DNA of 64,000 nt from Chitinophaga pinensis. Its GTDB lineage: Bacteria; Bacteroidota; Bacteroidia; NS11-12g; UBA9320. Below are positions 46,539-61,349 of this stretch, piece after piece. The translations under genes were made by a program, and so were the position numbers. Positions within the stretch are counted from its first letter, which is position 1, and each line of letters begins with the position of its first letter. The stretch spans positions 161,190 to 225,189 of the forward strand of contig CAMDSC010000001.1 in the NCBI GenBank assembly GCA_945907065.1, written 5' to 3'. A model generated the notes under the pieces. It did no database searches. It worked only from the letters and a program-made list of their open reading frames with translations, and was not told where the DNA came from.

Positions 46539-46570
46539 AATCATTCCTTTATAACCTTTATAAAATGATT
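46539..46570. terminator. AT-rich hairpin between convergent operons
   Basis: AATCATT plus TTATAA pair with TTATAA plus AATGATT around CCT, with a three-base bulge. It overlaps the end of the sulfatase coding region. A weak candidate for stopping both convergent transcripts. Confidence 0.35.
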
Positions 46571-48121
46571 AGCTTCACCTAGTATTTCTAAATAGTAGAT
46601 TCCTTTTGTTAAATTAGAAAAATCTTGATTTTCAATTTTGTATCCTTTAAAAATTAATTGCCCATAGCAATTTATCATTCTATATTCTTGGTTCATTTGA
46701 TTTGAAATAACCTTAATATAATTGGCAAATGGATTGGGAATTACATAAAACATTGACCGGCTATTTAAATTTGATACTCCAAAGGTTGAACAAAATCTAT
46801 TAATCCCTACCAAGGTTGTCATTTCACCACACAAATAATTGTAGTTGGTTTGATCCGTTGAACTTAATGTTCCAGATAGCAAGTCGTTATTCTCAGTAGG
46901 GTCTTTCGTGAGATTAAAAAACTTTTGAGTTCCATTATCAAAGTCGATTAATTTGTAATCCTTGTTTCGCATTGCCTTGCCATCGCCTGCAACGGTGGGT
47001 ATTTTAAATACTTCAGTAAAAACCCAAGGTCGAATATCTGATGTCTTATTCTTAAGTATGGGTAAAATGCTTTTACTGTCTAAAGGTTTATTCCCGGGTA
47101 TTTGGGATTGCCAGCTGCTGTATCCGAACAATTCTAAAATTGTGGCAAATAGATCATGGGTATTAACCAAAGCATCATTGGTTCTTCCGGGTGCAATTAA
47201 CGATGGTCCTGATATTATAAATGGCACACTCACACCTTCCTGATAAACGCTTCCTTTGGCTCCACCAGTATTTTGAGCAACCTGTGGATCATCACCATTA
47301 TCCCCAATAAAAATAATATCGGTACTGTCCCATTTATTTAATCGTTTCAATGAATCAAATACTCTTCCGATTTCATGGTCCAGCGCTTCCATAGCTGCTT
47401 TAAAATATGGTTTTGGATTGGCGGTAATATCCGCATCAAGTCCAGTCAGTGTTGTATCCGAATGCAGCGATTTAGGCGGCAAATGAAAAGGGACATGTGG
47501 TGCATTAAATGCCAGCCATAAAAAGAAAGGCTTGTTTTGGGCTTTTATCCATCTAACCGCATTATCGGCTGTTTCTGTGGTTGCATAATTTGTATTGTTG
47601 GTGGCTACACCGTTGGTAACCTTTGTCCAACTGTAGTAACTTTTTACCACTCCTGTAAAATTACCTTCATAATGGTCGTAGCCCATTTTGTTCGGAAAAA
47701 TATAATTAGAAGTAGGTGTAGGCAATTGTAAATGCCACTTTCCAATATTGGCTTTGGCAATTCCGTTTGGTTTAAATTTGTTTAACAATATGGGAATAGT
47801 CATTTCAGCTGTATCCAGAACAGCCGAAGTAGCTCCACCAACTGCATTTCCAACTCCTGTTCTAAAACTGTATCGGCCTGTTAGTATTCCAGCTCGGGTA
47901 GGGGAGCAGAGCGGGTTAGACCATGCTTTATTAAAACGGACACCAGAGCTTAATAATCTTCTGATATTTGGCATGCCGATGGTATCCAAATGGTTTTCAT
48001 AAAATCCGCAATAGTCTTTACCTAAATCATCAGCTATAATCAGAATGACATTTCTTTGAGCCGAGACCAGATAGGAAGTAACAGAAAAAAGAACTAAAAT
48101 TAGTATTTTTTTGAAAATCAC
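46541..48121 (-). CDS. Secreted T9SS sulfatase (first paralogue, standard CxPxR motif)
   Basis: 526 residues. Signal peptide to SAQ (22), metal-site start ILIIADDLG, and the formylglycine motif NPLCSPTRAGILTGRY with the catalytic Cys at residue 72 in a normal C-x-P-x-R. The alkaline-phosphatase fold metal region FIGDNGDD is at about residue 272. The last 80 residues are a T9SS sorting domain (YVIPNPFANYIKV...). It would remove a sulfate ester from an outside substrate; no target is visible. GTG start overlapping the upstream stop (GTGA). Last gene of the operon; paralogue of 54802-56385. Confidence 0.92.
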   Translation of the reverse strand: MIFKKILILVLFSVTSYLVSAQRNVILIIADDLGKDYCGFYENHLDTIGMPNIRRLLSSGVRFNKAWSNPLCSPTRAGILTGRYSFRTGVGNAVGGATSAVLDTAEMTIPILLNKFKPNGIAKANIGKWHLQLPTPTSNYIFPNKMGYDHYEGNFTGVVKSYYSWTKVTNGVATNNTNYATTETADNAVRWIKAQNKPFFLWLAFNAPHVPFHLPPKSLHSDTTLTGLDADITANPKPYFKAAMEALDHEIGRVFDSLKRLNKWDSTDIIFIGDNGDDPQVAQNTGGAKGSVYQEGVSVPFIISGPSLIAPGRTNDALVNTHDLFATILELFGYSSWQSQIPGNKPLDSKSILPILKNKTSDIRPWVFTEVFKIPTVAGDGKAMRNKDYKLIDFDNGTQKFFNLTKDPTENNDLLSGTLSSTDQTNYNYLCGEMTTLVGINRFCSTFGVSNLNSRSMFYVIPNPFANYIKVISNQMNQEYRMINCYGQLIFKGYKIENQDFSNLTKGIYYLEILGEANHFIKVIKE

Positions 48122-49338
48122 TTTTGTATTGAAAATTTATATGTGAATGATGTGTTGTTATCTTTTACCGTTAAAAAATACAATCCATTGGTAAGCGCTT
48201 CTGTATTAAAATGAAATTGATTATTGTTTAATACAGGTTCTTTAATATAAACAGTTTGCCCTAAATTATTAAATAGTCTAAATTGTAATTGATCGGAGTT
48301 CTCAACTTCTGATGAAAGATAGAAGCCCGTAGTTGCAGGATTAGGAAAAATATATGCAGATTTAACTTTTTTAGCAGTTTTTCCTATACCGCCGATTATC
48401 TGATTGCCCCCTCTTACACAAATAAAATAATTGGTGTTTGTTTTATCATCATAGGTTGTTATTCCAAATTGGGTTGATAAATACCAAGCCTTTGAAGTTA
48501 GATTTGGCAAGGAAGTAGATGACCAGTATTTATTTGGAAGAATCGTCGTAAAAAATAAATTATCAATTGAAGGACTACCTATTTTGTAATCACTAAGAGA
48601 TTGTAATTCTTTAATATTTGGTAATCGCCAGTCGGTTTTCCCGGCAATTGAAAGATTCTCAGCATAAATTAAAGCTTGTTCCCAGACATTGGAGTTAGGA
48701 TTGGGTATCTGCTCCCAAATTAAACCTGTAAGATGATCGGTAACAGTACCATCACCATTTTTAGTCAATCTGCTTTGAACCAAAGATGGAAACGTAACAT
48801 CCCTAACCGCTCTTACATGAAATTTCTTAGTTCCACCTGCACTTATTGTCTCGGTTTTGGGGTGGTTGCCAATACCACCACCGGCATTGATTACCCAAAT
48901 TCGGGTAGCATCATTGTATTGCTTATCTCCCGTCCACCAGTATTCAGATAAGGTTTTGGTAAAAACTGTTGTATTTAGGGCCGGGCCATTATTTTGGTGA
49001 TTTAATATACTGAATGACTCATGTGCATCGGGTAATCGCCAGTTGGTATAACCACCCAGGGTAAGTGAATCGCAATAGATAACGGCGTTTTCAATTGTCA
49101 TTTCACCCCCGTCAGTTTGCTGCCACATCAATCCTGTTATGGTGTCGGTTACGGTTCCGTTGCCATTGTTTTTAAAAAAAGGCGCATTTATGGTGTAGTC
49201 ATTGTCTTCGCCAAAAGTTGCTGTATAACTTGTATTTTGTCCGGTATCAGGAAGACGCTTCATGGTTTTGGTAACGCTTTGACTATGTGACAGATAAGTT
49301 GAAATTAAGAAAATAAGTGTTAAAATAGAATTCTTCAT
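48118..49338 (-). CDS. T9SS protein with two DUF1566/Lcl C-terminal domains
   Basis: 406 residues. Signal peptide (to about 20), then two DUF1566 repeats beginning GTVTDTITGLMWQQTD and GTVTDHLTGLIWEQIP, each with the WRLPD/WRLPN motif and a final RAVRD/CVRGG. A T9SS sorting domain ends the chain (YIFPNPATTGFYL...). DUF1566 (Lcl_C) has a C-type-lectin-like fold; Legionella Lcl binds sulfated glycosaminoglycans (family knowledge). ATG overlaps nothing upstream (13-base gap), and its stop overlaps the sulfatase start by four bases. Confidence 0.88.
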   Translation of the reverse strand: MKNSILTLIFLISTYLSHSQSVTKTMKRLPDTGQNTSYTATFGEDNDYTINAPFFKNNGNGTVTDTITGLMWQQTDGGEMTIENAVIYCDSLTLGGYTNWRLPDAHESFSILNHQNNGPALNTTVFTKTLSEYWWTGDKQYNDATRIWVINAGGGIGNHPKTETISAGGTKKFHVRAVRDVTFPSLVQSRLTKNGDGTVTDHLTGLIWEQIPNPNSNVWEQALIYAENLSIAGKTDWRLPNIKELQSLSDYKIGSPSIDNLFFTTILPNKYWSSTSLPNLTSKAWYLSTQFGITTYDDKTNTNYFICVRGGNQIIGGIGKTAKKVKSAYIFPNPATTGFYLSSEVENSDQLQFRLFNNLGQTVYIKEPVLNNNQFHFNTEALTNGLYFLTVKDNNTSFTYKFSIQK

Positions 49339-49351
49339 GATTTTATTCCGA

Positions 49352-50584
49352 TTATTCGATAATTAATTTCTGTATTACTTGATCATTACCGCTCATGATT
49401 TTAATAAAATAAACTCCGGAAGGTATCAAAGGAAGTTCTATTTTTTCATTAAAATCATCTGATACATAAACATTTTCACCGATTCCATTTAAAATTCTGA
49501 TTTTGTAATTTTTATTATTTGACAAACCTTCTATACCTTGAATTAGGAAACTATTTTTTGCCGGGTTAGGATAAATCCGAATTTTCAAATCCGGCAATTT
49601 ATTGTTGAAAATTGAAACGGGACTTGCAACCGTATACCTCACAATCACCTCATTATCTAAAATAACATTGGAGCTCCAGATAAATTCGGCATCGTTGGAA
49701 GCATCGTCAAAAATACCTTTAAAATAGGTATAAGTTGGTTTATTGTCAACGCCAATTGTTGTATTGGTATACGTAGATGCTGATGGCCAAGACGAATCAT
49801 CAAACGATGTACTCATCCATTTGACTGGCCGGCTCCAGTGCAACCCGTAATATTTACTTCCGTCATTTGAGTTTTGGGTACTACAATTGTTCGACAACCG
49901 TGAAGTGCCGGACTCTGTTGGACAGGTTAAATCTGTTAAAGGTGAAGTGTAAAAAGTTTGAGCCTTCCATTTATTACCTGTGGATGCAACTATTTTGTTG
50001 GAGGCATCTTTAAAAACTGCTACCATACCCCCGTCGCCTGGATGGTAAGCGAAACCACCGTTTAATTCTGAACCGAGTCCCAGATTTTCTTCCCAATCCA
50101 CCAAAAGCATGGCGATGGTAAATGGTCTTTTTACTTTAAAGCGTACAATGCTTGAGTTGAATTGAGTGAAAGGAACTCTATCTTTTCCAACAGCTGTCCC
50201 GTTAATGTACATTTCAAAGTAATTATCTGCAAAAACATATGCTGTAATTACTTCTCCATCGGCATCAACTGTAACAATATCAGAACCGTTTAAGGCCGCC
50301 AAAGCAGAGGCGACAGTGGTGTAGTTGTTTCCATTACAAACGTTGTTTAGATCAGAAGAAAACGGAAAAGAGGTGTTTGTGAAATTAACAATTGCTGGAA
50401 CTATCCAACTAGAATTATCTGTGGCTTTTATGGTCCCGATACCCGATAAACGGCCTCCGCTGCATGAATACAGGTTAGTAACGGTGGTACTTGCAGGTCC
50501 CTGGGTAACCGAGCCTGTTCCTTTGTACTGAGCAAAAGAATTAATTGAAATAAACAGAGCTATCAGGTAAACGATTTTTTGCAT
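49352..50584 (-). CDS. T9SS-secreted beta-rich protein of unknown function
   Basis: 410 residues. Signal peptide (MQKIVYLIALFISINSFAQ), then a large beta-sandwich-like region (FADNYFEMYINGTAVGKDRVPFTQFNSSIVRFKVKRPFTIAMLLVDWEEN) that resembles carbohydrate-binding or PA14-like folds, and a T9SS sorting domain (RIYPNPAKNSFLIQG...KLIIE). Several Cys residues (CSGGRLSG, CNGNNY, CPTESG, NNCSTQ) suggest disulfides. No catalytic motif recognised. Nine bases after the YHYH protein gene. Confidence 0.75.
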   Translation of the reverse strand: MQKIVYLIALFISINSFAQYKGTGSVTQGPASTTVTNLYSCSGGRLSGIGTIKATDNSSWIVPAIVNFTNTSFPFSSDLNNVCNGNNYTTVASALAALNGSDIVTVDADGEVITAYVFADNYFEMYINGTAVGKDRVPFTQFNSSIVRFKVKRPFTIAMLLVDWEENLGLGSELNGGFAYHPGDGGMVAVFKDASNKIVASTGNKWKAQTFYTSPLTDLTCPTESGTSRLSNNCSTQNSNDGSKYYGLHWSRPVKWMSTSFDDSSWPSASTYTNTTIGVDNKPTYTYFKGIFDDASNDAEFIWSSNVILDNEVIVRYTVASPVSIFNNKLPDLKIRIYPNPAKNSFLIQGIEGLSNNKNYKIRILNGIGENVYVSDDFNEKIELPLIPSGVYFIKIMSGNDQVIQKLIIE

Positions 50585-50593
50585 TTTTTTTGA

Positions 50594-52216
50594 TTATTGA
50601 ATGCTAATTTTTTTAACAAACTGCTGTTTATATGCCTGAATTTTAACCAGATAAATGCCTCTTGAAAGATTCCTGATATCAATGTTTGGGACATATTGCC
50701 CGGCATGATAAACCATTTCGCCATTTAGGCTGTAAACAGAAATTTCCTGAATATCCTTTTCCAATATCTGTTTGGATAACTTTAAATTTAATACTTCCTT
50801 AACTGGATTTGGATAAATTGAAATTTCATTTTCCAGAAACACCAAATTGACCGATGCCGTAGAAACTTTACAAATCGTGGTTCCTGTATAATTAGTCGTT
50901 GTTTTTACCCCTGATACATAATAATTAAACGTAAAAAATCCTGCAGGCGTCCAGCTGTAAACCACCGAATCTGTTCCACCTGAAAGAGTGTAGGTCAGTT
51001 TATAACCATTCCCAGCTTTGTTTGGGATACAACTTGTAATAACGGCTCCTTTTAATGGGGTGCCGGCAGGACGGACCCCTTTGGCGGCAGCCTGAGGAAT
51101 TATTTGAAGGGTGGCATCTTCGGTAACCTGACCCACCATGTTTCCAATCATATAAGGTGCTGTTGGTGTTCCGTGATAATGGTAAACCCCGTTACTGCCA
51201 TCGTGCCCGTGATTGGCATCGAGTGTTTTCATGGCTGAACCATCAGGCTCAAGACTGCCGTAAACGGCATATCCGTCCAGTGCAAAGGCAATGGGTAAAA
51301 TATCTGCAGTTTTATCATCTAAAAATAAAGGCGCAATGTGATAATGGTAATCATCTGCACGGCCGCAGTGGCCTCCATAATTATCAAGCTGACCATCCAA
51401 CAGAGCATCTACACCGGTATTGGTGTAAGGATTGAAGATGGCTACCCCATTGGCAGCAATGGCAACCGCACCGCGCAAAAAATGTTGGGCATTTACGGGG
51501 ACCGGCGTTGCGGCTTTCACCGGATTTAAGGGAATACTCCAGGCATTGGAACCAATATAACACTGAGGAATGGGAAACTGTTGCTGCCATCCTGTTATTC
51601 CTGACATCATTAAATGTTCGGGGATGCCAAGGGACTCAGCATAAAAATAGGTATTGTCCCAACGGGTATTGACATTGGGTTTGAAGGGTGAAAATGCTGA
51701 ATTAACAAATGCAGGATCAGTGGTTGTGCCTAAAACGCCAATGACTTTGGTGGTGAAACTGTAAAGTGACAGTAAAATCGTAACCAAAAAAATCGGAGCT
51801 AAATATTGAATCTTTTGTTTCTGTGCAATCTTAAAAATATAAAATCCGGACAATATCAGGAGAGCTAAAAATACGAAGAATTTAATATCAAATATGCTTA
51901 GAACACAAACCTTTGGTTTTGCCCGTTCTGCTATTTGATGGTTTAATTTTTCAATCCGGGCATATTTAGCCAAAACAAACGCCTGATCTTCTTTTGTGAA
52001 AGCTGTTAAAGGATAGTTAATGATTTTGTCATGATCGGTTTCAATGTAAACATTCCCATTTTTATACATAAAAAAAGAACCTTCGAAAGTCTTCGACTCC
52101 CTCGCAAGCGTCCAGTGTTTTTGATTGGAATAGTCATAATGGCTGTCATGGGCAAACAATAAATTGCCCATCAGGCAAATCATGAGTAGGAAACTGTATT
52201 TTTTTATTTTGTTCAT
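50594..52216 (-). CDS. YHYH protein with SHD1-like domain, two membrane helices and T9SS tail
   Basis: 540 residues. Signal peptide (about 1-22), an N-terminal SHD1-like stretch (HWTLARESKTFEGSFF...NYPLTAFTKEDQAFV, about 34-90), then two hydrophobic helices (about 108-130 and 138-157). A YHYH domain follows (about 185-400; HCGRADDYHYHIAP, GVYHYHGTPTAPYMIG, FALDGYAVYG). The C-terminus is a T9SS sorting domain (ISIYPNPVKEVLNL). YHYH domains are His-rich and uncharacterised; metal binding is plausible. Two internal helices in a T9SS substrate are odd, see findings. Confidence 0.85.
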   Translation of the reverse strand: MNKIKKYSFLLMICLMGNLLFAHDSHYDYSNQKHWTLARESKTFEGSFFMYKNGNVYIETDHDKIINYPLTAFTKEDQAFVLAKYARIEKLNHQIAERAKPKVCVLSIFDIKFFVFLALLILSGFYIFKIAQKQKIQYLAPIFLVTILLSLYSFTTKVIGVLGTTTDPAFVNSAFSPFKPNVNTRWDNTYFYAESLGIPEHLMMSGITGWQQQFPIPQCYIGSNAWSIPLNPVKAATPVPVNAQHFLRGAVAIAANGVAIFNPYTNTGVDALLDGQLDNYGGHCGRADDYHYHIAPLFLDDKTADILPIAFALDGYAVYGSLEPDGSAMKTLDANHGHDGSNGVYHYHGTPTAPYMIGNMVGQVTEDATLQIIPQAAAKGVRPAGTPLKGAVITSCIPNKAGNGYKLTYTLSGGTDSVVYSWTPAGFFTFNYYVSGVKTTTNYTGTTICKVSTASVNLVFLENEISIYPNPVKEVLNLKLSKQILEKDIQEISVYSLNGEMVYHAGQYVPNIDIRNLSRGIYLVKIQAYKQQFVKKISIQ

Positions 52217-52307
52217 GTTTTTTCGAAAACTTTCACCTACATATTAATATAATTGTTTTGAAGAATAGACATAACAAATTTCTTATTTATTCGCAGATTT
52301 AAAATTT

Positions 52308-52919
52308 TTATTTTCTAAAGTGTATTTGACATCCGATGGATTTAGTCTCTTTTATTTCAACTTCCTTCTCATTTAAGAGTTGGTCAAGAGCCCTTGAAAT
52401 GTAATTGTTTTCAACCTTTTCGGGTTCAGCACCATTATCGTCGATTGCCCCCTTGTATTTGATTTTCCATATTCCTTTTTCTTTCCAAATCACATAGGCA
52501 TGGGGCGTTTTTTGTGCATTGAAATTTTTGGCAACTAATTGTTGTGAATCATATAAATAAGGGAAGTTAAAAGATTCATTATTTGATTTTTCAACCATTT
52601 TGATATAAGTATCTTCTTCATAGGCAATGGTGTCTGTAGAACTGATGGCTAGAAGCGGAATTCCCATTTTTTTATATTTTAAATTTAATTCATTTAATCT
52701 GGCTGGGTATAGCTTAGCAAAAGGGCAATGATTGCAGGTAAAAATAATAATGAATCCTTTGGCATCGGGATAATCGCTTAGTGAAACATAGCTTCCATCC
52801 ACATTTTTTAGTTTAAAATCTATTACATTATCACTATCCCTGAATGTAAAATTAACAAGTGTGAAACCTAAGATGGCTAGGATCAGGCCGGTTTGAATTT
52901 TAAAAATGCTGTGTTTCAG
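52308..52919 (-). CDS. Membrane-anchored thioredoxin-fold redoxin, CTG start
   Basis: 203 residues if it starts at CTG (52917-52919). This sits as CTGA over the stop of the upstream thioredoxin gene, the same geometry as the ATGA and GTGA overlaps elsewhere in the operon. The N-terminal part LKHSIFKIQTGLILAILGFTLVNFTF forms a signal/anchor. The redoxin domain has FTCNHCPFAKLYPARL as the CxxC-containing active site. The GTG at 52802 (VDGSYVS) would drop the anchor. No ATG/GTG/TTG exists earlier in frame. Probably periplasmic; AhpC/TSA-type. Could reduce thiols or serve in metal delivery. Confidence 0.75.
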   Translation of the reverse strand: MKHSIFKIQTGLILAILGFTLVNFTFRDSDNVIDFKLKNVDGSYVSLSDYPDAKGFIIIFTCNHCPFAKLYPARLNELNLKYKKMGIPLLAISSTDTIAYEEDTYIKMVEKSNNESFNFPYLYDSQQLVAKNFNAQKTPHAYVIWKEKGIWKIKYKGAIDDNGAEPEKVENNYISRALDQLLNEKEVEIKETKSIGCQIHFRK

Positions 52920-53398
52920 TTTGCAAATTTCTTTAATAAGCTATAGGAAAGGGATTCTGTGGTAAACCTTCGGTTATCAGAAGCCTTATGAAGTATCAGA
53001 GTGGCCGGAATTACACCACTCCAGGTATTATCAATTTTGTCTATCCATTCATTGGCGTCCGGTTCATCCAATAAATAAACCGTTTGATTGATATTTAAAT
53101 TCTGAACCATTGGTAACAAACTCTCAGACATGTTTTTTTTAAAATCCAGACTTACAAAAATCACCCTAACTTTTTTGTTCTTATTTTCATCAGCATATTT
53201 CAAAAATTCCGGGATTTCCTTAATGCAGGGTGCACACCACGATGCAAAGAAATTAACAACATACACGGTATCAGGATTTGATGTAATCCTTTGCTGTAAT
53301 GTCTCAAATTTAATTATTGAAATATTTTGAGAAAAAGCAACATTATGAAATAAAAGGAATACGGCAAATATTTTCAATTTCATAGTCTTTTTATGCAT
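52916..53398 (-). CDS. TlpA-like thioredoxin
   Basis: 160 residues. Signal peptide (MKLKIFAVFLLFHNVAFSQ, ATG at 53383 or 53398) and the thioredoxin core with WCAPC in FFASWCAPCIKEIPEF (about 53), then ATLIL near the cis-Pro (GVIPATLIL). TlpA-type proteins reduce disulfides in the periplasm, often for cytochrome c or copper centres. Its neighbours include a diheme protein and a multicopper oxidase, which fits such a role. Overlaps the redoxin by four bases. Confidence 0.88.
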   Translation of the reverse strand: MHKKTMKLKIFAVFLLFHNVAFSQNISIIKFETLQQRITSNPDTVYVVNFFASWCAPCIKEIPEFLKYADENKNKKVRVIFVSLDFKKNMSESLLPMVQNLNINQTVYLLDEPDANEWIDKIDNTWSGVIPATLILHKASDNRRFTTESLSYSLLKKFAN

Positions 53399-53429
53399 TG
53401 TTTATTATCAAATATGCACGAAAGTTAAC

Positions 53430-54800
53430 TTATTTATAAACTTCAACCTTCTTAGTTATCGAACCTTTATAGTTAGAAATTTTAATTATATATTCTCCAC
53501 TATATATTGTTTTGGTATCGAAGTAAACGATGGTACTTCCCTGGTTTATGACAGCATTTTGAATCATTCGTCCATTTAAATCATACAGGGATACCGTTGT
53601 ATTTTCTCTTGACAAACCATTCATTTGTACCGCAATCAAATCACTGCTCGGATTTGGGAAAACAGAAATTTGATTGTCCTCAAGTTTCTGAATAGCCACT
53701 GCAGGTGCATAGGTTTGAACCGTTTCGGTAATGCTTGTTACTTTAGAGGCAGTTTTTGTTCCATAAAAAGTAGGACCTACGATGTATGGGTAAGCCGAGT
53801 TCCAATTTTTATCAACGGTGGCGTAATAACAATAAATACCATCAGGATATTCCGGGGTTTTACAAAAACGTCCGTTGTGTTCATCTAAATAATCGGGTGT
53901 GGTTGGCGAAGTGGTATTGTACTGATAATCCTCCCTAAAATAACCTAATTTATAGGTAGCATCAACATCAGGCCCTGCCGTTACGGTAGTTCCGGTATAA
54001 TATGTTGTCCGAGTTGTAATATTTCTTAGGCTATAACTGGATTTCATTCGTGTAATTCCGCCGGTACCATCTGTATTTTTATAGGCATATGCTCCGTAAA
54101 TAGGAAATCCATCATAGGCAAATCCTATTAAAGGTGAATGCTTGGTGCTGTCAATTACATACAATCCATCGGCATCGTATAAATTGCAAACAGTAGATAT
54201 TACAGTTAAATCCAATTTAAAGGCACTTGGATTCTGGTGGTGATGATAATTGCCCATAGCAGGATCTACTTTGGAACCAGCAGGATGTCCTTTGGAACAA
54301 TCAAAGCCTAACTTTTCACCAACCACTGCATCGCGGTTCCAAACGCCATCGCCAATTCCGCCTAAAGGACCGCCTTTTAAAGAACTTGAACTGTTTTGCC
54401 ACGAAACCCCGTCGCGGTAATCAAACAAGGCCACGCCATTAATAAAAATACCAATATTTCCACCGGTGGTGGCTGTAAATGCTCCCGGATTTTTAACAGG
54501 TTTTAATGATATTTTAAAAATTGCATTTTGGGCGCTAGCCAATGAAGGATTGTTGTCCAAAAAAGGTCCGGTAACATAAGCAGGAATACCCTGGGTGCTT
54601 ATGTAAACCCAATCTGCAGAATATTTAACATTTTGAACATTTGCTAAAGTGGCATCGGTAATTGCTGTGGAATTGCCCTTTACATAATGTCTTCCTGTTA
54701 TGTTTGTGGTGTTTTGAAGCCAATTCAGAATAGCCGGATTGGTTTGTGCATTTGAGGCAATGCTTATAAAAAGCAAGCTGAAGGCCATTAATTTTTTCAT
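53430..54800 (-). CDS. YHYH protein with T9SS sorting domain
   Basis: 456 residues. Signal peptide (MKKLMAFSLLFISIASNAQ), a YHYH domain with the variant core GNYHHHQNPSAFK (about 188), LIGFAYDGFPIYGAYAYKN and YYATVDKNWNSAYPYIVGP, then a linker and a T9SS sorting domain (ISVFPNPSSDLIAVQM). Unlike the 540-residue relative it lacks internal helices, so secretion is straightforward. The DEHNGRFCKTPEYPDGIYCYY segment has two Cys. One base follows the sulfatase stop. Confidence 0.85.
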   Translation of the reverse strand: MKKLMAFSLLFISIASNAQTNPAILNWLQNTTNITGRHYVKGNSTAITDATLANVQNVKYSADWVYISTQGIPAYVTGPFLDNNPSLASAQNAIFKISLKPVKNPGAFTATTGGNIGIFINGVALFDYRDGVSWQNSSSSLKGGPLGGIGDGVWNRDAVVGEKLGFDCSKGHPAGSKVDPAMGNYHHHQNPSAFKLDLTVISTVCNLYDADGLYVIDSTKHSPLIGFAYDGFPIYGAYAYKNTDGTGGITRMKSSYSLRNITTRTTYYTGTTVTAGPDVDATYKLGYFREDYQYNTTSPTTPDYLDEHNGRFCKTPEYPDGIYCYYATVDKNWNSAYPYIVGPTFYGTKTASKVTSITETVQTYAPAVAIQKLEDNQISVFPNPSSDLIAVQMNGLSRENTTVSLYDLNGRMIQNAVINQGSTIVYFDTKTIYSGEYIIKISNYKGSITKKVEVYK

Positions 54801-54801
54801 A

Positions 54802-56385
54802 TTATTCTTTTAATAATTTTATGGTTTGATTTTTTTTATTTGAAATTTTAAGGAAATAAATCCCATTTGGCAAGTTTGAGAAATTTTGAAGTTCTATGTT
54901 TTTTCCGGTAAATAGAATTTGCCCAACACAATCGGTAAGCTCATAAATTTCCCGATCCGTAAAGGATTCACTGCGAATATAGGAATGGAAAGGATTAGGA
55001 TAAATATCTGATTTCTGATCTACAATATTTTTTATGTCGGATGAACTGTTACAGAAGGATCCCTTGCCAATCAATTTTGTCATTTCACTGCACAAATAAT
55101 TGAAATTGGTCTGTTCTATTGAAGATAAATTTCCTTTTAACAAATCATTTAATTCATCGGGGTCAGTATTTAAGTTATAGAATTCTTCTTTACCATAATC
55201 CAATTTGATGAGTTTAAATTCCTTGTTTCGCATGGCTTTTCCATCTGTTGAATCCGGTGTTAATTTAAAATTTTCACAAAATTGCCAAGGACGTATTTCT
55301 GTGCTCGTGTTTTTTAAAATGGGAAAAATACTTTTGCTGTCCACCGGCTTGTTTGATGGTATTAGCGTCGGCCATGACTTGTCCCCAAATAAATCCAGAA
55401 CGGTTGCAAAAATATCCGTGGTATTTATTAAAGCATCACTTTTTCTTCCCGGATTTACGACCGAAGGCCCGGCAATGATAAATGGAACGTGAACGCCATA
55501 TTGGTAAACCGTTCCTTTGGCTTTTGCTGTATTTGTAATTTGAGCTGTCTGAATGGTATTGCCATTGTCCCCTATAAAAATAAAATCAGTGCTGTCATAG
55601 CGGTTCATCTTTTTTAATGAGTCGTAAAATCTTCCAATTTCATGATCCAATGCCTGAAGCATAGCTTTGAAATACGACTTGGGGTTTTTCGAAATATCTA
55701 GTGTTGTTCCACTTAAGGTGGTATAAGAATGCAGATTGGCAGGCGGTAAATGATAGGGAGCATGTGGTGCATTAAAAGCCAACCACAAAAAAAATGGTTT
55801 TGAATTTTGTTGCTTTAACCAACTTACCGCATTATTTACATTTTCAGTGGTGGCATAGGTGGTTACATTACTTGAAACCCCATTGGTATATTTAGTCCAG
55901 TTTGTAAAACTTGGAAGTTGACCAATAAAAGGGCCTTCAAAATGATCGTAACCCATTTTATTGGGATTTAATAAGTTAGATGCCGGAGTTGCTTGATGCA
56001 AATGCCATTTGCCAATATTTGCTTTTGCAATATTTGTATTAAATTTTTTAAGTAATCGAGGAATGGTTATTTCTGAAGTATCCAATTGATTGGAACCTCC
56101 TGCTCCTCCTACAATACCTCCAACGCCTGTTCTAAAACTATACCTGCCTGTTAAAATTCCTGAGCGGGTGGATGAACAAACCGGATTGGACATGGCATTG
56201 CTAAACCGAACTCCTTTTTTTAGCAATGCTCTGATATTCGGGACATCCACAGTATCCTTATAATCTTCGTAACAACCTAAATAATCAGTTCCTAAATCAT
56301 CCGCAATGATCAATACGACATTCCTTTGAGAATAGGAATAATAAGATAAAACAATTGTAAAAATGCTTAGGACCAGTTTTCTCAT
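54802..56385 (-). CDS. Secreted T9SS sulfatase (second paralogue, atypical CSSTR motif)
   Basis: 527 residues with signal peptide (to SQ 20), VLIIADDLGTDYLG, and NPVCSSTRSGILTGRY: the Cys (about 70) and Arg are kept but the motif proline is Ser. The rest closely tracks the paralogue at 46541-48121 (FIGDNGN, WHLHQATPASN, PWQFCENFK), ending in a T9SS domain (DIYPNPFHSYIRSESF). Activity depends on formylglycine at Cys; the changed motif may need a different maturation enzyme. ATG overlaps the oxidase stop by four bases. Confidence 0.9.
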   Translation of the reverse strand: MRKLVLSIFTIVLSYYSYSQRNVVLIIADDLGTDYLGCYEDYKDTVDVPNIRALLKKGVRFSNAMSNPVCSSTRSGILTGRYSFRTGVGGIVGGAGGSNQLDTSEITIPRLLKKFNTNIAKANIGKWHLHQATPASNLLNPNKMGYDHFEGPFIGQLPSFTNWTKYTNGVSSNVTTYATTENVNNAVSWLKQQNSKPFFLWLAFNAPHAPYHLPPANLHSYTTLSGTTLDISKNPKSYFKAMLQALDHEIGRFYDSLKKMNRYDSTDFIFIGDNGNTIQTAQITNTAKAKGTVYQYGVHVPFIIAGPSVVNPGRKSDALINTTDIFATVLDLFGDKSWPTLIPSNKPVDSKSIFPILKNTSTEIRPWQFCENFKLTPDSTDGKAMRNKEFKLIKLDYGKEEFYNLNTDPDELNDLLKGNLSSIEQTNFNYLCSEMTKLIGKGSFCNSSSDIKNIVDQKSDIYPNPFHSYIRSESFTDREIYELTDCVGQILFTGKNIELQNFSNLPNGIYFLKISNKKNQTIKLLKE

Positions 56386-58127
56386 TCTTTAATAAATTTC
56401 TTTGTAGTCATTATTTTTGTTTCATCTTGTGTTATTTGCAATGTATATATTCCGGAAGCCAATCCTGAAATATCAATTCCTTTTTCCAATTCAGGTTTTG
56501 GCAACATTAATACGGTTTTTCCAAGAGCGTTTACGATTCTTATATAATAGACCTTTGAATTCGATTGGTCATAGGCTACAAATAATTTGGTGTTCGCAGG
56601 ATTTGGAAAAATATTTATTTGAGGGTCAGATTTTTGCAGTGAGTTGAATGAACCTGCAGGACTTGTCACTAAAAACTGTCCCATCATGCCTTCATCTTCA
56701 TGCAATGAAATATGGCAATGGAACATAAATGGGTGTGAGGCATCTGCATAGTCATCAAATTTTGCAATGAATCTTACAACAGATGCGGTGGTTCCTGTTT
56801 TACCCGGAATAAAAACCACATCTTTCCATCCTGCTTGGGCAGCCGCAGGAGCCGCACCCTTGACCGACAAAATATTAAACTCCACATCATGGATATGAAA
56901 AGGATGGCCGAAAACGGAGTTGCTGGTAATTTCCCAAATTTCGGTATTGTTCAAGGCAATATTGTAATCGGTAACATTTAGCTTAAATAGTTTGTGGTTA
57001 ATCACAAATGCATTGGGACCAAGAATGACCGGGACTTTAACGCCTGCACTGTCACTGATGGTCACTTTTCTTGTAATAACAGCATCTGCTGAATTAAGTG
57101 GTTTATTAATAGTCAGCATTACAGGTACAGTTGTAATTGGTGAAACGGTAATTGCTCCAATTTTTAAATGCAAAATATTAAAATCTTTTTTACCCAGGGC
57201 ATTGGCAAAAGGGCCGTTGACAAAGGCCTCGCCTCCGGCAACAAAATTACCCAAGGTGGAATTGTAGGCTTTTAAATCCAGTGAAGTGCCCGATTGTGAA
57301 ACGCAATTGACTAAAATTTCAATGCGTTCGCCTGCATGTAATAAATATCTTGTCACAGAAACCGGAGCATTTAAAAGTCCACCATCGGAAGTTATGATAT
57401 GAAAGGTCCTGTTATCACTGAAACCAAGGTTATAAGAACGTTCAATTGCGGCATTCAAAATTCTGAATCGCACAACCTGTGCGGGAATAGAGAACTCAGG
57501 ACGAAGCGTTCCGTTTACCATCATGGTATCGCCATAAGGCACTGCCACAAATTGATTGGATGTGTTAAAATCACGGTCTGTTAATACCAATGGAATATCA
57601 TCCACGCCATATTTTCTTGGCAAGGCCAAAGCAGATTCTATGCTGTCTCTCACAATAATCAACCCTCCAATTCCCTTGGTAATTTGGTCCATAGTCATTT
57701 CATGTAAATGTGGATGGTACCAATAGGTAGCGGCGTTGTTGGTCACTTTCCAGTAAGGTTGCCAAAGAGTACCGGGAGGAATCACCTGGTGTGGACCTCC
57801 ATCCATAACTGCAGGCAAGTGCATGCCGTGCCAGTGAAGTGTCGTGGAATCATTCAGGTTATTTTTAACATTCATATGCACCACATCTCCTTTTTTAATA
57901 AATAAGGTCGGACCCCAAAATTTACCATTGATGCCCCCCGTAATGGTTTGGTTACCCTTGCTCACGATTTGGGCGAAGGTATCTTTGATATTCAGGTTAA
58001 AATTATTCCCCGAAAGCGTGTCGGGTATCCAAAGTGTGTTGTATTGTGCCTTACTTTGACCTCTTGACAATAAAATAAGAAGGATGGAAAAAAACAGAAG
58101 AAAAATTCGTTGCTTTGTTTTATGCAT
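56382..58127 (-). CDS. T9SS-exported multicopper oxidase
   Basis: 581 residues, signal peptide to about 28, three cupredoxin domains. All copper motifs are intact: HWHG (about 98), WYHPHLH (about 136), HPFHIH (about 408) and HCHISLHEDEGMM (about 470), the last giving the type 1 Cys and the possible axial Met. A T9SS sorting domain ends the chain (NIFPNPANTKLFVAY). Such oxidases can oxidise Cu(I), Mn or phenols; CueO/CotA-like. In this operon Cu(I) detoxification or use is the likely role. 36 bases separate it from the diheme protein. Confidence 0.92.
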   Translation of the reverse strand: MHKTKQRIFLLFFSILLILLSRGQSKAQYNTLWIPDTLSGNNFNLNIKDTFAQIVSKGNQTITGGINGKFWGPTLFIKKGDVVHMNVKNNLNDSTTLHWHGMHLPAVMDGGPHQVIPPGTLWQPYWKVTNNAATYWYHPHLHEMTMDQITKGIGGLIIVRDSIESALALPRKYGVDDIPLVLTDRDFNTSNQFVAVPYGDTMMVNGTLRPEFSIPAQVVRFRILNAAIERSYNLGFSDNRTFHIITSDGGLLNAPVSVTRYLLHAGERIEILVNCVSQSGTSLDLKAYNSTLGNFVAGGEAFVNGPFANALGKKDFNILHLKIGAITVSPITTVPVMLTINKPLNSADAVITRKVTISDSAGVKVPVILGPNAFVINHKLFKLNVTDYNIALNNTEIWEITSNSVFGHPFHIHDVEFNILSVKGAAPAAAQAGWKDVVFIPGKTGTTASVVRFIAKFDDYADASHPFMFHCHISLHEDEGMMGQFLVTSPAGSFNSLQKSDPQINIFPNPANTKLFVAYDQSNSKVYYIRIVNALGKTVLMLPKPELEKGIDISGLASGIYTLQITQDETKIMTTKKFIKE

Positions 58128-58163
58128 ATATATTTGATCTTATAGTTTGACGATTTTAAAATT

Positions 58164-59201
58164 TCAATCCTTCGGTAAAGATAGAAGAATATTTTTGGGA
58201 TAGCCGAATTCGGTATTAAATAAGAACTTTTTATCACTTAAGGTTAGCAAAAAGCTAATCAAATCTATCTTTTCATTGGCCGATAAAACAATGGGTTGCT
58301 CCAATTGCAAAGCCAAAGTTTTACTTTTTACAATGCCTGTGGTGTAATGATCCAATACCGCATTCAAATTTTTAAATCGGCCGTCGTGCATGTAGGGATA
58401 TGAAAATTCAATATTTCGAAGCGTAGGCACTTTGAATTTTAAAGAGTCATTTGGGTTTTGGGTAACCTTCATTCTTCCAAAATCTTTTAATTCCAAATCT
58501 AGGGGCAAACCGTTATTTTCAAATTTCTGATTGGTAAACAACGGTTCAGTATGACAGGAAGCACAGTTTTGCTTATAAAGTTTATATCCATTTTTCTCTT
58601 GCCTTGTAAATACTGATTCTTTTCGCTTTAAACTGTCGTATTTTGAATTGGCACTCACCAGAGTTAGCATAAATTGAGAAATTGCTTTTAACAGGTGTTC
58701 ACCTGATGCAATGCTGTCGCCAAATGCTTTAAAAAAAAGATGATGATATATTTTAGATTGATTGAGTTTATAAATTACGTGTTCAATGCTTTCGCCCATC
58801 TCATCGGGATGGCTTATCGGCGCGAGTGCCTGCATATCCAAATGGTTTATGGCGCCATCCCACATAAAGGTTTTGTTCCATGCCAAATTAATCAGCACCG
58901 GTGCATTTCGTGTTCCAATTCGGTCATAAATTCCATGGCTTAAAGCATGATCGACATGAGCAAATGCGGTAAATTGGGAATGGCAACTTGAACAAGAAAT
59001 GGTATTGTTTTGGGATAAAATCGGGTCATAAAACAGGGCTCTTCCTAAATCTATTTTGTCTTTTGTTAAAGGGTTTTTTGAAAAATTGTAGTTCGGCTTC
59101 GGCCAATTTAGAGGAATATTAAAAAGTCCATCTTTGCTAGTAACAAATGCTGAGACGCATATAAATAATAAGCAAACCGAAACATTCCTCCTCCAATTCA
59201 T
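58164..59201 (-). CDS. MbnH-like diheme cytochrome c peroxidase/MauG family protein
   Basis: 345 residues, signal peptide (about 1-22), two heme c sites CSSCH (70-74) and CASCH (213-217), HPDEMG (about 131) and VPTLRNIEFSYPYMHDGRF (about 260). The family contains bacterial cytochrome c peroxidases, MauG and MbnH. The neighbour encodes an MbnP-like protein, and in the known pair MbnH oxidises a Trp of MbnP to kynurenine to make the copper site. This is why MbnH is favoured. Overlaps the MbnP gene by four bases. Confidence 0.92.
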   Translation of the reverse strand: MNWRRNVSVCLLFICVSAFVTSKDGLFNIPLNWPKPNYNFSKNPLTKDKIDLGRALFYDPILSQNNTISCSSCHSQFTAFAHVDHALSHGIYDRIGTRNAPVLINLAWNKTFMWDGAINHLDMQALAPISHPDEMGESIEHVIYKLNQSKIYHHLFFKAFGDSIASGEHLLKAISQFMLTLVSANSKYDSLKRKESVFTRQEKNGYKLYKQNCASCHTEPLFTNQKFENNGLPLDLELKDFGRMKVTQNPNDSLKFKVPTLRNIEFSYPYMHDGRFKNLNAVLDHYTTGIVKSKTLALQLEQPIVLSANEKIDLISFLLTLSDKKFLFNTEFGYPKNILLSLPKD

Positions 59202-59896
59202 TCTTTAATTTTAAAGAGTTTACCCAGTTGATTAGATAATATTAATGCATCCTTATTGGGTGACATAACAGAAGGCTTATTCTCTAAGTCCACATCGCTT
59301 AAAAACGTTTTTAGGTCAAATTTAATGCTCACATCTTGGAGATTGGAAGTCAACAGCGAGATGGTTTGTAATGAGTTGTAAGGATGAGTATAACCTCCCA
59401 AATGAAATTGAAACTCATGTTTTCTCGATCGACAAAGATTGCTTTTTCCTTCCAGTTTAAAATTTACGTACCCACTTTGCCATGTCCAATACATGCCTTT
59501 TATGGGGTCTAAATCGCCCCCTATGGCACCTGAAACATTGGTTAAACTGTCGATACCGAGTTTAAATTTTATCTCAGCGTATATCATATCGGAAGGAACT
59601 TTAAAGGCCAATTTTAAGGTGTTGCTGTCCGATGCATCCATTAAATGAAAGCTGTTTGGTTCTATCCAAACCGGTGCTGAATTATTCCAAAACTCTATTG
59701 CGGAAACATAAAATTTCAAGGTTTCAAATTGAATGCTGTCGATCTTATTCAGTTTATAAACGGAGTCATTCAATTGCAGAACGGAATTGCCGAACATCGG
59801 TTTAAAATTCAAGGATAGTATTCGGAAGTTTTGAGCAAGAAGTTGATTACTGTAAAATGATAAAACTATTGGAAAGAAGGCTAAGCGCTTCTTCAT
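59198..59896 (-). CDS. MbnP-like periplasmic copper-binding protein
   Basis: 232 residues, signal peptide to about 22. The family pattern is LNFKPMFGNSVLQLND near the N-terminus, ETLKFYVSAIEFW, FHLMDASDSNTLKL, and GGDLDPIKGMYWTWQSGYVNFKLEG with W137 and W139, one of which may be the Trp converted to kynurenine. FQFHLGGYTHPY (about 165) supplies His residues. Probably exported to the periplasm or outer membrane for copper binding. Start is ATG overlapping the sensor protein stop by four bases. Confidence 0.88.
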   Translation of the reverse strand: MKKRLAFFPIVLSFYSNQLLAQNFRILSLNFKPMFGNSVLQLNDSVYKLNKIDSIQFETLKFYVSAIEFWNNSAPVWIEPNSFHLMDASDSNTLKLAFKVPSDMIYAEIKFKLGIDSLTNVSGAIGGDLDPIKGMYWTWQSGYVNFKLEGKSNLCRSRKHEFQFHLGGYTHPYNSLQTISLLTSNLQDVSIKFDLKTFLSDVDLENKPSVMSPNKDALILSNQLGKLFKIKE

Positions 59897-60351
59897 CTTG
59901 GGTTTATAGTTCGAGGACGTCTTGAAAACAAAGAGGCCAACTCCTCTGTCAGTGCGTTGAATGCAGGTAGCTGATTTTCATTGCAAAGTTTCTTAACATC
60001 CTGGAAATGTTTGTAATGAATGGACTCTATTTTTATCTGACATTGTCCAATGGCATTAATGATGGAGTCTTTATAAAGATTATTTGAGTCCCGGGCAAGG
60101 CTTTCATAAAGTGTATTTTTTAAACCTTTGATTTCCAATTCAGTGTGTTGTATTTTCTTTCTATGACCATCTATTAATACGTCATATTTTTCAATCTGAC
60201 CTTTATCAAACTTCAGCCTTTCCAGAATTAGACTTCTTGGTCCATTAGGACCTCCATGTATTGGTTTTTGTAAAACAATAAAACCGATTAAGAGTAAATT
60301 GGAAAGGAGTAATCCAATAGATAGAAGGCTTAAAATTTTTACTTTGCTCAT
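59893..60351 (-). CDS. Periplasmic heavy-metal-sensor-like protein (CnrX/Spy-type)
   Basis: 152 residues with one N-terminal helix (about 6-27) and an otherwise helical, charged periplasmic domain (GPRSLILERLKFDKGQIEKYDVLIDGHRKKI..., QCQIKIESIHYKHFQDVKKLCNENQ). It fits the Metal_resist/Spy-like group. His, Met and Cys are few but include HRKKIQH and IHYKHFQ. By its position next to the sigma and one-helix genes it is the likely sensor. Overlaps both neighbours by four bases. Confidence 0.78.
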   Translation of the reverse strand: MSKVKILSLLSIGLLLSNLLLIGFIVLQKPIHGGPNGPRSLILERLKFDKGQIEKYDVLIDGHRKKIQHTELEIKGLKNTLYESLARDSNNLYKDSIINAIGQCQIKIESIHYKHFQDVKKLCNENQLPAFNALTEELASLFSRRPRTINPR

Positions 60352-60623
60352 TTATATAATGAATTATCAGGCATTAAATTGAATGTATTAACCAAAGTAT
60401 TATCACTTCTAATTTGATGTATACGTTTGTTTATCACCATAAAATTTAATGCCAAAACTAAAATAAATGAAAGACCAATTGACCAGGTTAACTTTAATGA
60501 AAACCTTGAGGTGCAAGTATTCTCAATCTTTTGTTTAATGCGGGTAAATAAAAATGGCGGTGCATCTACTTTGTGTATTTGCCCTAACAGGTCCAAAGAT
60601 AATTTTTTGTTATTGCTGTTCAT
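60348..60623 (-). CDS. One-helix anti-sigma-like protein (CnrY-type)
   Basis: 91 residues. A cytoplasmic N-terminus (about 1-44; LLGQIHKVDAPPFLFTRIKQKIENT), one helix (about 45-63) and a short periplasmic tail. Its length and layout match CnrY, which binds the sigma factor in its N-terminal helix; the sequence itself shows no known anti-sigma motif. ATG start, 32 bases after the sigma gene, and its last bases overlap the sensor gene. Role inferred from context. Confidence 0.7.
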   Translation of the reverse strand: MNSNNKKLSLDLLGQIHKVDAPPFLFTRIKQKIENTCTSRFSLKLTWSIGLSFILVLALNFMVINKRIHQIRSDNTLVNTFNLMPDNSLYK

Positions 60624-60655
60624 TGTTTGTTATTATTAGTTTGACGCTAATTTTT

Positions 60656-61180
60656 TCAATTTCCTTCGTTGATGTTTATTTTTTTCTGTAAACTTGTTTT
60701 AGCACGCTGAATTAAAGATTCAACTGCTTTAACACTTAGGTCCATTATTTCAGCAATTTCTGCTTGTGTCTTTTGTTCTATTTTACTTAAAATAAGTGCC
60801 GTTTTTTGATTTTCAGATAATCGATTGATATGCTTAAATAATTGCTGCAACGCCTCTTTATTTTCAAGTTGCACCCCAGGATGATTAAATTCGGGTTTTT
60901 CATATTTTACTTCAATTGAATTTTCAGAAAAAAGAGAATAAAAAATACCAAACCTTTTTTTGCGTTGTCGGCTTTTAATAAAATCCAACGATTTATTAAT
61001 GGTTATTCTGTGAATCCAAGTGCTAACTTTAGATTGCTCCTTAAATGAATTTAACGATTTATTTACAGATACAAATACATCCTGTGTTATTTCTTCGGCA
61101 TCTTCACAATTTTGAACATATTGCAAGGCAAGGTTATAAACAAGATTCTTATTGGAATTGTATAAATCTTCAAATTTCAA
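60656..61180 (-). CDS. ECF RNA polymerase sigma factor
   Basis: 174 residues. Region 2 covers about 1-70 (YNLALQYVQNCEDAEEITQDVFVSVNKSL, VSTWIHRITINKSLDFIKSRQRKKR) and region 4 about 115-165 (RLSENQKTALILSKIEQKTQAEIAEIMDLSVKAVESLIQRAKTSLQKK). The start is TTG at 61180; an in-frame stop lies seven codons upstream and the only nearby ATG is out of frame. First gene of the 14-gene metal operon; likely drives it and itself. No sure promoter was found for it. Confidence 0.93.
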   Translation of the reverse strand: MKFEDLYNSNKNLVYNLALQYVQNCEDAEEITQDVFVSVNKSLNSFKEQSKVSTWIHRITINKSLDFIKSRQRKKRFGIFYSLFSENSIEVKYEKPEFNHPGVQLENKEALQQLFKHINRLSENQKTALILSKIEQKTQAEIAEIMDLSVKAVESLIQRAKTSLQKKININEGN

Positions 61181-61349
61181 TCTTGCATTTTTATTAAGCT
61201 ACGATATTAATACATTTCAAAGCCAATTTTAGTTTGAGAGCATACTACTAAAAAATAAATTAGATATTTTTTGATGTCATATTGAAGTCCATAATCAAGT
61301 GCTTGTAACACAAATTTTTGTACTTTCGTCTTTTATAAAAGGAGAAACG
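61181..61349. promoter_or_regulatory. Divergent control region of the metal operon and the BNR protein
   Basis: 169 bases. On the minus strand TGGCTTTG (61218-61225) is one base off TAnnTTTG, 37 bases before the sigma gene. On the plus strand TACTTTCG (61321-61328) is one base off, and a small palindrome ACAAA/TTTGT (61310-61321) overlaps it. None is a perfect match, which is what one expects if an alternative sigma factor reads this region. Confidence 0.4.
61337..61344 (+). promoter_or_regulatory. Shine-Dalgarno site AAAAGGAG
   Basis: AAAAGGAG lies five bases before the TTG at 61350. Such sites are scarce in this window, so it decides the TTG start of the large BNR protein. Confidence 0.65.

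Follow-up and report, generated by a model that had tools for sequence, protein, structure and literature searches.

In the CnrYXH and NccYXH systems of Cupriavidus metallidurans, an extracytoplasmic function (ECF) sigma factor, a small one-helix anti-sigma factor, and a membrane-anchored hairpin sensor are encoded in one cassette, whose output is a resistance-nodulation-division efflux pump. Binding of metal to CnrX loosens CnrY from CnrH (PMC7689651). Another group of described systems consists of adjacent genes for MbnP and the MauG-like MbnH (TIGR04052/TIGR04039; GenProp0940), along with MopE/SACCP and CorA/CorB. The copper site of MopE contains a kynurenine formed from tryptophan, copper represses the CorA/CorB genes, and an ECF/FecR-type system is found near some of the MbnP/MbnH pairs of Methylosinus (PMC3621798). 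YHYH domain proteins (PF14240), in turn, have been predicted to be metal-dependent hydrolases in phages (PMC7824862). Here, we analyzed a 64,000-nucleotide stretch of Chitinophaga pinensis contig CAMDSC010000001.1 (the window), in which 14 consecutive minus-strand genes at 46541-61180, as given by an open reading frame listing, bring relatives of these systems together. We favor, with moderate confidence, the reading that a periplasmic metal switch of the CnrYXH type, which probably responds to copper, controls an MbnP/MbnH/YHYH module in this locus, and that a second module was joined to the first by a deletion. The evidence for it consists of gene order, conservation, a predicted fold, a missing stretch of DNA, paired His residues, di-haem and multicopper motifs, and export tails.

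The core of the locus encodes an ECF sigma factor with a TTG start (SIG, 60656-61180; PF04542, PF08281), a 91-residue one-helix protein (ASF, 60348-60623), a putative membrane-anchored periplasmic sensor (SEN, 59893-60351), an MbnP-family protein (MBNP, 59198-59896), a MauG/MbnH-type di-haem enzyme (MBNH, 58164-59201; PF03150), and a long YHYH protein (YHYH1, 53430-54800; PF14240, 182 bits). The order SIG-ASF-SEN-MbnP-MbnH-YHYH1 recurs in relatives from many families of the class Bacteroidia, and carriers include Fluviicola chungangensis (L148), Crocinitomicaceae metagenome-assembled genomes, and a Kapaibacterium metagenome-assembled genome (L151). A sensor profile searched in 295 genomes of the class found matches in 61. 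Among the 61 sensor loci examined, MbnP/MbnH was nearby in 32, and either MbnP/MbnH or YHYH in 39; when only strong matches (above 100 bits) were considered, 26 of 30 were found beside MbnP/MbnH or YHYH. With about two MbnP genes per 3-4 Mb genome, we estimate chance proximity at ~1%. The sensor/MbnP and MbnP/MbnH junctions both have a median spacing of −4. Since this first part of the run keeps its order in dozens of genomes, the run exceeds what chance would produce, and the pairing of the cassette with MbnP/MbnH and YHYH, suggested in a preliminary description of the window, proved to be conserved class-wide. In a scan led by YHYH1, which yielded 80 named loci, 52 of them with enough upstream sequence, MbnP was present in 40 of the 52, MbnH in 42, and an ECF cassette was detected in 17. 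Because of this difference, MbnP-MbnH-YHYH1 is the firmer unit, with the cassette present in part of the loci. Our literature search, with most subscription journals outside its reach, found no paper linking MbnP/MbnH or CnrX-type sensors with YHYH. Judged from the genomes compared, the pairing of the regulator with a copper module is real, conserved, and undescribed in the literature searched.

The preliminary description had called the third gene product heavy-metal-sensor-like. SEN is invisible to searches of Pfam and NCBIfam families, including at the cut-offs of Metal_resist (PF13801) and LTXXQ (PF07813), and a single-sequence search of the PDB gave no match; the assignment was borne out by structure prediction. 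An AlphaFold2 model built on an alignment of 27 relatives (predicted local distance difference test score, pLDDT, 89) consists of a membrane helix followed by a helical hairpin, and the N-terminus contains a hydrophobic segment that fits an anchoring helix. When the model was compared to the PDB with Foldseek, ranks 1-15 were all occupied by solved CnrX or NccX structures, with a probability of 1.00 and TM-scores, normalised to the target, of 0.60-0.81. A viral fold library gave no convincing match to the same model. At the level of sequence, the SEN profile reaches NccX marginally (E=0.077), with H115 aligned to an NccX His, which we take to be equivalent to CnrX H119. SEN has H63, H115, and C123, while CnrX has H42, H46, E63, H119, and M123; only the H119 equivalent aligns (with H115), and H63 sits one turn from the position of CnrX E63. 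Of the 68 sensors encoded next to MbnP/MbnH, 63 have H63, 61 have H115, and 66 have C123. Given the helix limits of the model, as opposed to its coordinates, H63 is expected to lie across the hairpin from residues 111-115.

The same sensor features bear on a different explanation, in which the cassette responds to envelope stress in the manner of Spy/CpxP (misfolding, oxidation, or redox state) rather than to metal, and MbnH and the thioredoxins serve in surface redox or damage control. SEN2, the sensor of a sister cassette in near relatives, passes the cut-offs of Metal_resist and of LTXXQ, the Spy/CpxP family, and an invariant sensor Cys together with two thioredoxin-fold genes in the window is compatible with redox sensing. 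We nevertheless consider this explanation unlikely, as the fold search with SEN placed CnrX/NccX at ranks 1-15 and listed neither Spy nor CpxP in its 50 matches, the paired His residues are conserved on the hairpin, and copper-type neighbors, including SCO1, are found at most sensor loci.

SIG matches CnrH (4cxf_A) distantly (E=2.6e-9), with RpoE and SigW outscoring it. Family searches with ASF gave no family, and an ASF alignment searched against PDB sequences gave nothing relevant and no match to the solved CnrY. In architecture, each of the 88 ASF equivalents contains a single hydrophobic helix, preceded by ~47 residues and followed by ~28, and only two of the 88 have the zinc motif that many anti-sigma factors of class I share. 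ASF is thus a candidate class II anti-sigma factor resembling CnrY. A short L-Y/F tail ends 46 of the 88 equivalents, compared to 5% of other small open reading frames; this C-terminus (60348-60380 in the window, and its equivalents) may be a docking place for the sensor. A class I anti-sigma domain is encoded near only 6% of the ECF sigma factors of Bacteroidetes (PMC7406223), and ASF-type cassettes could for this reason fill part of the gap. The CnrHYX analogy drawn in the preliminary description is therefore supported by the sensor fold match and by the one-helix anti-sigma architecture. Similarity of sequence to CnrYXH/NccYXH is marginal. Unlike in CnrYXH, the order of the cassette is sigma-anti-sigma-sensor, and the output is MbnP/MbnH/YHYH.

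As in the described MbnP/MbnH pairs, the MBNP and MBNH genes are adjacent and the tryptophans are invariant (W137 and W139 of MBNP, a WxW motif); as with some Methylosinus pairs, an ECF sigma factor is nearby. MBNP is well over the Pfam cut-off (PF20243, 146 bits vs 27) and below the NCBIfam equivalog cut-off (TIGR04052, 42.8 bits vs 140), and a search of MBNP against PDB sequences gave nothing relevant. MBNH contains CxxCH, the c-type haem motif, at 70 and 213; its best NCBIfam match is TIGR04039, at 212.6 bits, under the curated cut-off of 362.85. Thus, unlike the known pairs, both proteins fall under the equivalog cut-offs, the regulator is of the CnrYX type instead of FecI/FecR with a TonB receptor, and YHYH is an added conserved partner. 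Like other YHYH domain proteins, YHYH1 has a conserved His cluster and Asp: H172, H186-188, H221, and D230 were invariant in two alignments. The structure model of YHYH1 was unusable (pLDDT 47) and was therefore not taken into a fold search. Unlike phage YHYH, a tail part, YHYH1 has a type IX secretion system (T9SS) tail for surface export and is tied to MbnP/MbnH. At five further loci (L054, L168, L171, L179, L187), a related sensor is accompanied by the copper chaperone SCO1, a MORN-repeat protein, and a short YHYH protein; by gene content, these loci are a second copper connection of the sensor cassettes. Two more MbnP genes are present in the genome of the window (G000:C1:96620-97156, L057, and G000:C8:18874-19458, L058); one has its own MbnH and is near a DsbD-like gene, and neither has a sensor cassette.

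The likely role of the module, judged from these products, is copper handling. A less probable reading than that of envelope stress is that the switch responds to nickel, cobalt, or zinc, as CnrX/NccX do, with the MbnP/MbnH/YHYH output protecting surface metalloenzymes instead of supplying copper. Such a reading would agree with the nature of the SEN fold matches, which are Ni/Co sensors, and with the prediction of YHYH as a zinc-dependent hydrolase (PMC7824862). No efflux pump of the Cnr, Ncc, or Czc type was identified among the neighbors scanned, however, and those neighbors whose metal use is known (MbnP/MbnH, the multicopper oxidase, and SCO1) are copper ones, so that we regard it as distinctly improbable.

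Several observations weigh against a copper-responsive CnrYXH-type switch. The E-values of the Foldseek matches of SEN are modest (0.01-0.1, from 0.012 upwards), which is to be expected for a small helical fold, but the consistency of the CnrX/NccX matches is, in our view, persuasive. H42, H46, and the signaling M123 of CnrX are without counterpart in SEN, pointing to a predicted CnrX-fold sensor with a ligand set that differs from that of CnrX. A two-block promoter motif search upstream of 56 sigma genes reached 10.4 bits, with shuffled controls at up to 9.8, i.e., nothing clearly above background; one-block Gibbs sampling recovered only the sigma coding region. The SIG-SEN cassette was not detected at 35 of the 52 complete YHYH1 loci, and the regulator is therefore not required for the module. 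At two loci (L186, 3487-11215, and L190, 4803-11229), the cassette keeps H63/H115/C123 and has no copper-type neighbor. Finally, at L039, a SEN2-type cassette lacking H63 and H115 precedes MbnP-MbnH-YHYH1; therefore, cassettes can be swapped.

The downstream part of the 14-gene run belongs to another module. In G006 and G004, two near relatives, the gene for the redoxin TRX2 is followed by a SIG2-ASF2-SEN2 cassette, two T9SS metallophosphoesterases, YHYH2, a protein without a family name, and an Lcl protein, with sulfatase 2 present after Lcl in G006. In the window, TRX2 is followed directly by YHYH2 (50594-52216; PF14240, 58 bits), UNK, the protein without a family name (49352-50584), LCL, a lectin-like protein with an Lcl C-terminal domain (48118-49338; PF07603), and SULF2, a second sulfatase (46541-48121). 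Compared to the loci L036 and L037 of these relatives, 4,952 bases of L036 are missing, namely the stretch containing SIG2-ASF2-SEN2-MPE1-MPE2; the flanking DNA aligns cleanly on either side of the break, which coincides with the 91-base intergenic gap at 52217-52307. A search for the first phosphoesterase across the genome of the window found no other copy, with essentially only sorting tails matching. The more distant loci L083, L088, and L093 have two phosphoesterases at the place of the junction, which points to a loss in the window and not a gain in the relatives. Judging by this comparison, YHYH2-UNK-LCL-SULF2 is the tail of a second module, joined to the core by a 4.95-kb deletion.

The second module has a regulator of its own in the relatives. 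The second ECF cassette precedes two T9SS metallophosphoesterases and YHYH2 at L036 (11152-16038), L037 (4928-9809), and L120 (1-6310). SEN2 of L036 is over the Pfam cut-offs of both PF13801 and PF07813. In SEN2, H63 and H115 are replaced by Y or F and by Q, respectively, and SEN2 therefore probably reads another signal. By its gene content, the SEN2-led set is a separate, possibly phosphorus-related surface-enzyme module. Given this separate ECF cassette in relatives and the 4.95 kb lost here, the 14 genes do not represent a single ancestral operon; the run is a local product of deletion and not a conserved unit. The least probable of the readings weighed here, therefore, is that of the preliminary description, in which the sulfatases and YHYH2-Lcl belong with the other genes to a single metal-responsive operon and functional unit of 14 genes under SIG: tight spacing all along, nothing obvious separating the halves in the window, and contiguity of both parts in one orientation at L077, L083, L088, L093, L096, and L134 speak for it, but the downstream module comes with an ECF cassette of its own at L036, L037, and L120 (the latter with both modules, each with a cassette, in opposite order), is found, whole or in part, away from the core at L071-L073 and convergent to it at L043/L044, and the missing 4.95 kb fall exactly at the junction with the largest gap of the run. 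By the refutation test named in the preliminary description, independent occurrence of the two halves, the earlier grouping is thus refuted in part: the SIG-to-YHYH1 core is conserved, while YHYH2-unknown-Lcl lies at separate loci (L071-L073), is convergent (L043/L044), or has its own ECF cassette (L036, L037), and the multicopper oxidase and sulfatases are optional.

Optional members around the core in the window are MCO, a CueO-like multicopper oxidase with all four His motifs, HWH, HPH, HIH, and HCH (56382-58127), the sulfatase SULF1 (54802-56385; PF00884, PF18962), the thioredoxin-fold protein TRX1 with CAPC (52916-53398), and the AhpC/TSA-like redoxin TRX2 with CNHC (52308-52919). MCO, both sulfatases, both YHYH proteins, UNK, and LCL have type IX sorting tails. 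A recent duplication of the sulfatases was ruled out, as SULF2 DNA is only ~66% identical to the sulfatase 1 genes of relatives. Four-base overlaps are found at the anti-sigma/sensor, sensor/MbnP, MbnP/MbnH, MCO/SULF1, and LCL/SULF2 junctions; the remaining gaps are 32, 36, 1, 31, 91, 9, and 13 bases. TRX1 and TRX2 also overlap by four bases if TRX2 starts at an in-frame CTG at 52919. No usual start codon is present at the likely N-terminus of TRX2, the CTG restores a hydrophobic leader, and the 203-residue L036 orthologue has an ordinary start at the equivalent place and the same overlap with TRX1 (CTGA in the window, 52916-52919), making CTG the probable start. The gene number, spacing, and maximal gap given in the preliminary description were confirmed, and its naming of the ECF sigma factor, MbnP, the MbnH-type protein, the multicopper oxidase, the two sulfatases, the two YHYH proteins, the two thioredoxin-fold proteins, and Lcl mostly agrees with family searches. 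Opposite SIG, a divergent plus-strand gene (61299-63998) encodes a large protein that is exported and carries repeated SxDxGxTW-like motifs, and the intergenic DNA between the two is partly conserved with L037. Elsewhere, the cassette at L186 and L190 precedes an ATP-grasp protein, a pyridoxal phosphate-dependent decarboxylase, and a urea transporter fused to an M23 peptidase. In one genus (L200, L202, L203, L205, L209, L210), the cassette is followed by a ~900-residue outer-membrane protein; the one scanned, from L203, is a TonB-receptor-like beta-barrel.

For the proposed copper switch, we infer the identity of the metal, the release of the sigma factor, self-transcription and co-transcription, MbnP modification, and the roles of the enzymes. 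ASF would hold SIG at the inner membrane, while SEN would read periplasmic metal through the hairpin residues H63 and H115, possibly also H112 and C123. Metal binding by SEN, or loss of metal, would release SIG, which may then transcribe its own operon, with MbnP, MbnH, and the type-IX-exported YHYH metalloprotein as the conserved output. In later work, MbnH reportedly turns a tryptophan of MbnP into kynurenine, with copper binding. MBNH would likewise modify MBNP oxidatively, enabling it to bind copper in the periplasm, and YHYH1, along with the optional MCO and sulfatases, would do its work on the cell surface. The response could run in either direction, as the CnrX precedent is induction by metal and the CorA precedent is repression by copper.

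A metal switch of the CnrX type and an MbnP/MbnH pair, each known separately, are combined here in one conserved unit. Related pairs in methanotrophs are copper-repressed, whereas CnrX systems are metal-induced. Naming YHYH as a fixed third partner provides a context for an uncharacterized domain. The controls of most ECF sigma factors in Bacteroidota, the phylum concerned, are unknown (PMC7406223). More tentatively than for the locus itself, we suggest that CnrX-fold sensors with tiny one-helix anti-sigma factors may be a widespread class of ECF control in Bacteroidota, in which the His-type branch would sense periplasmic copper and switch an undescribed MbnP-MbnH-YHYH copper system, one arm of which is exported to the surface; other sets of surface enzymes, such as the metallophosphoesterase module, would be driven by branches with different ligands.

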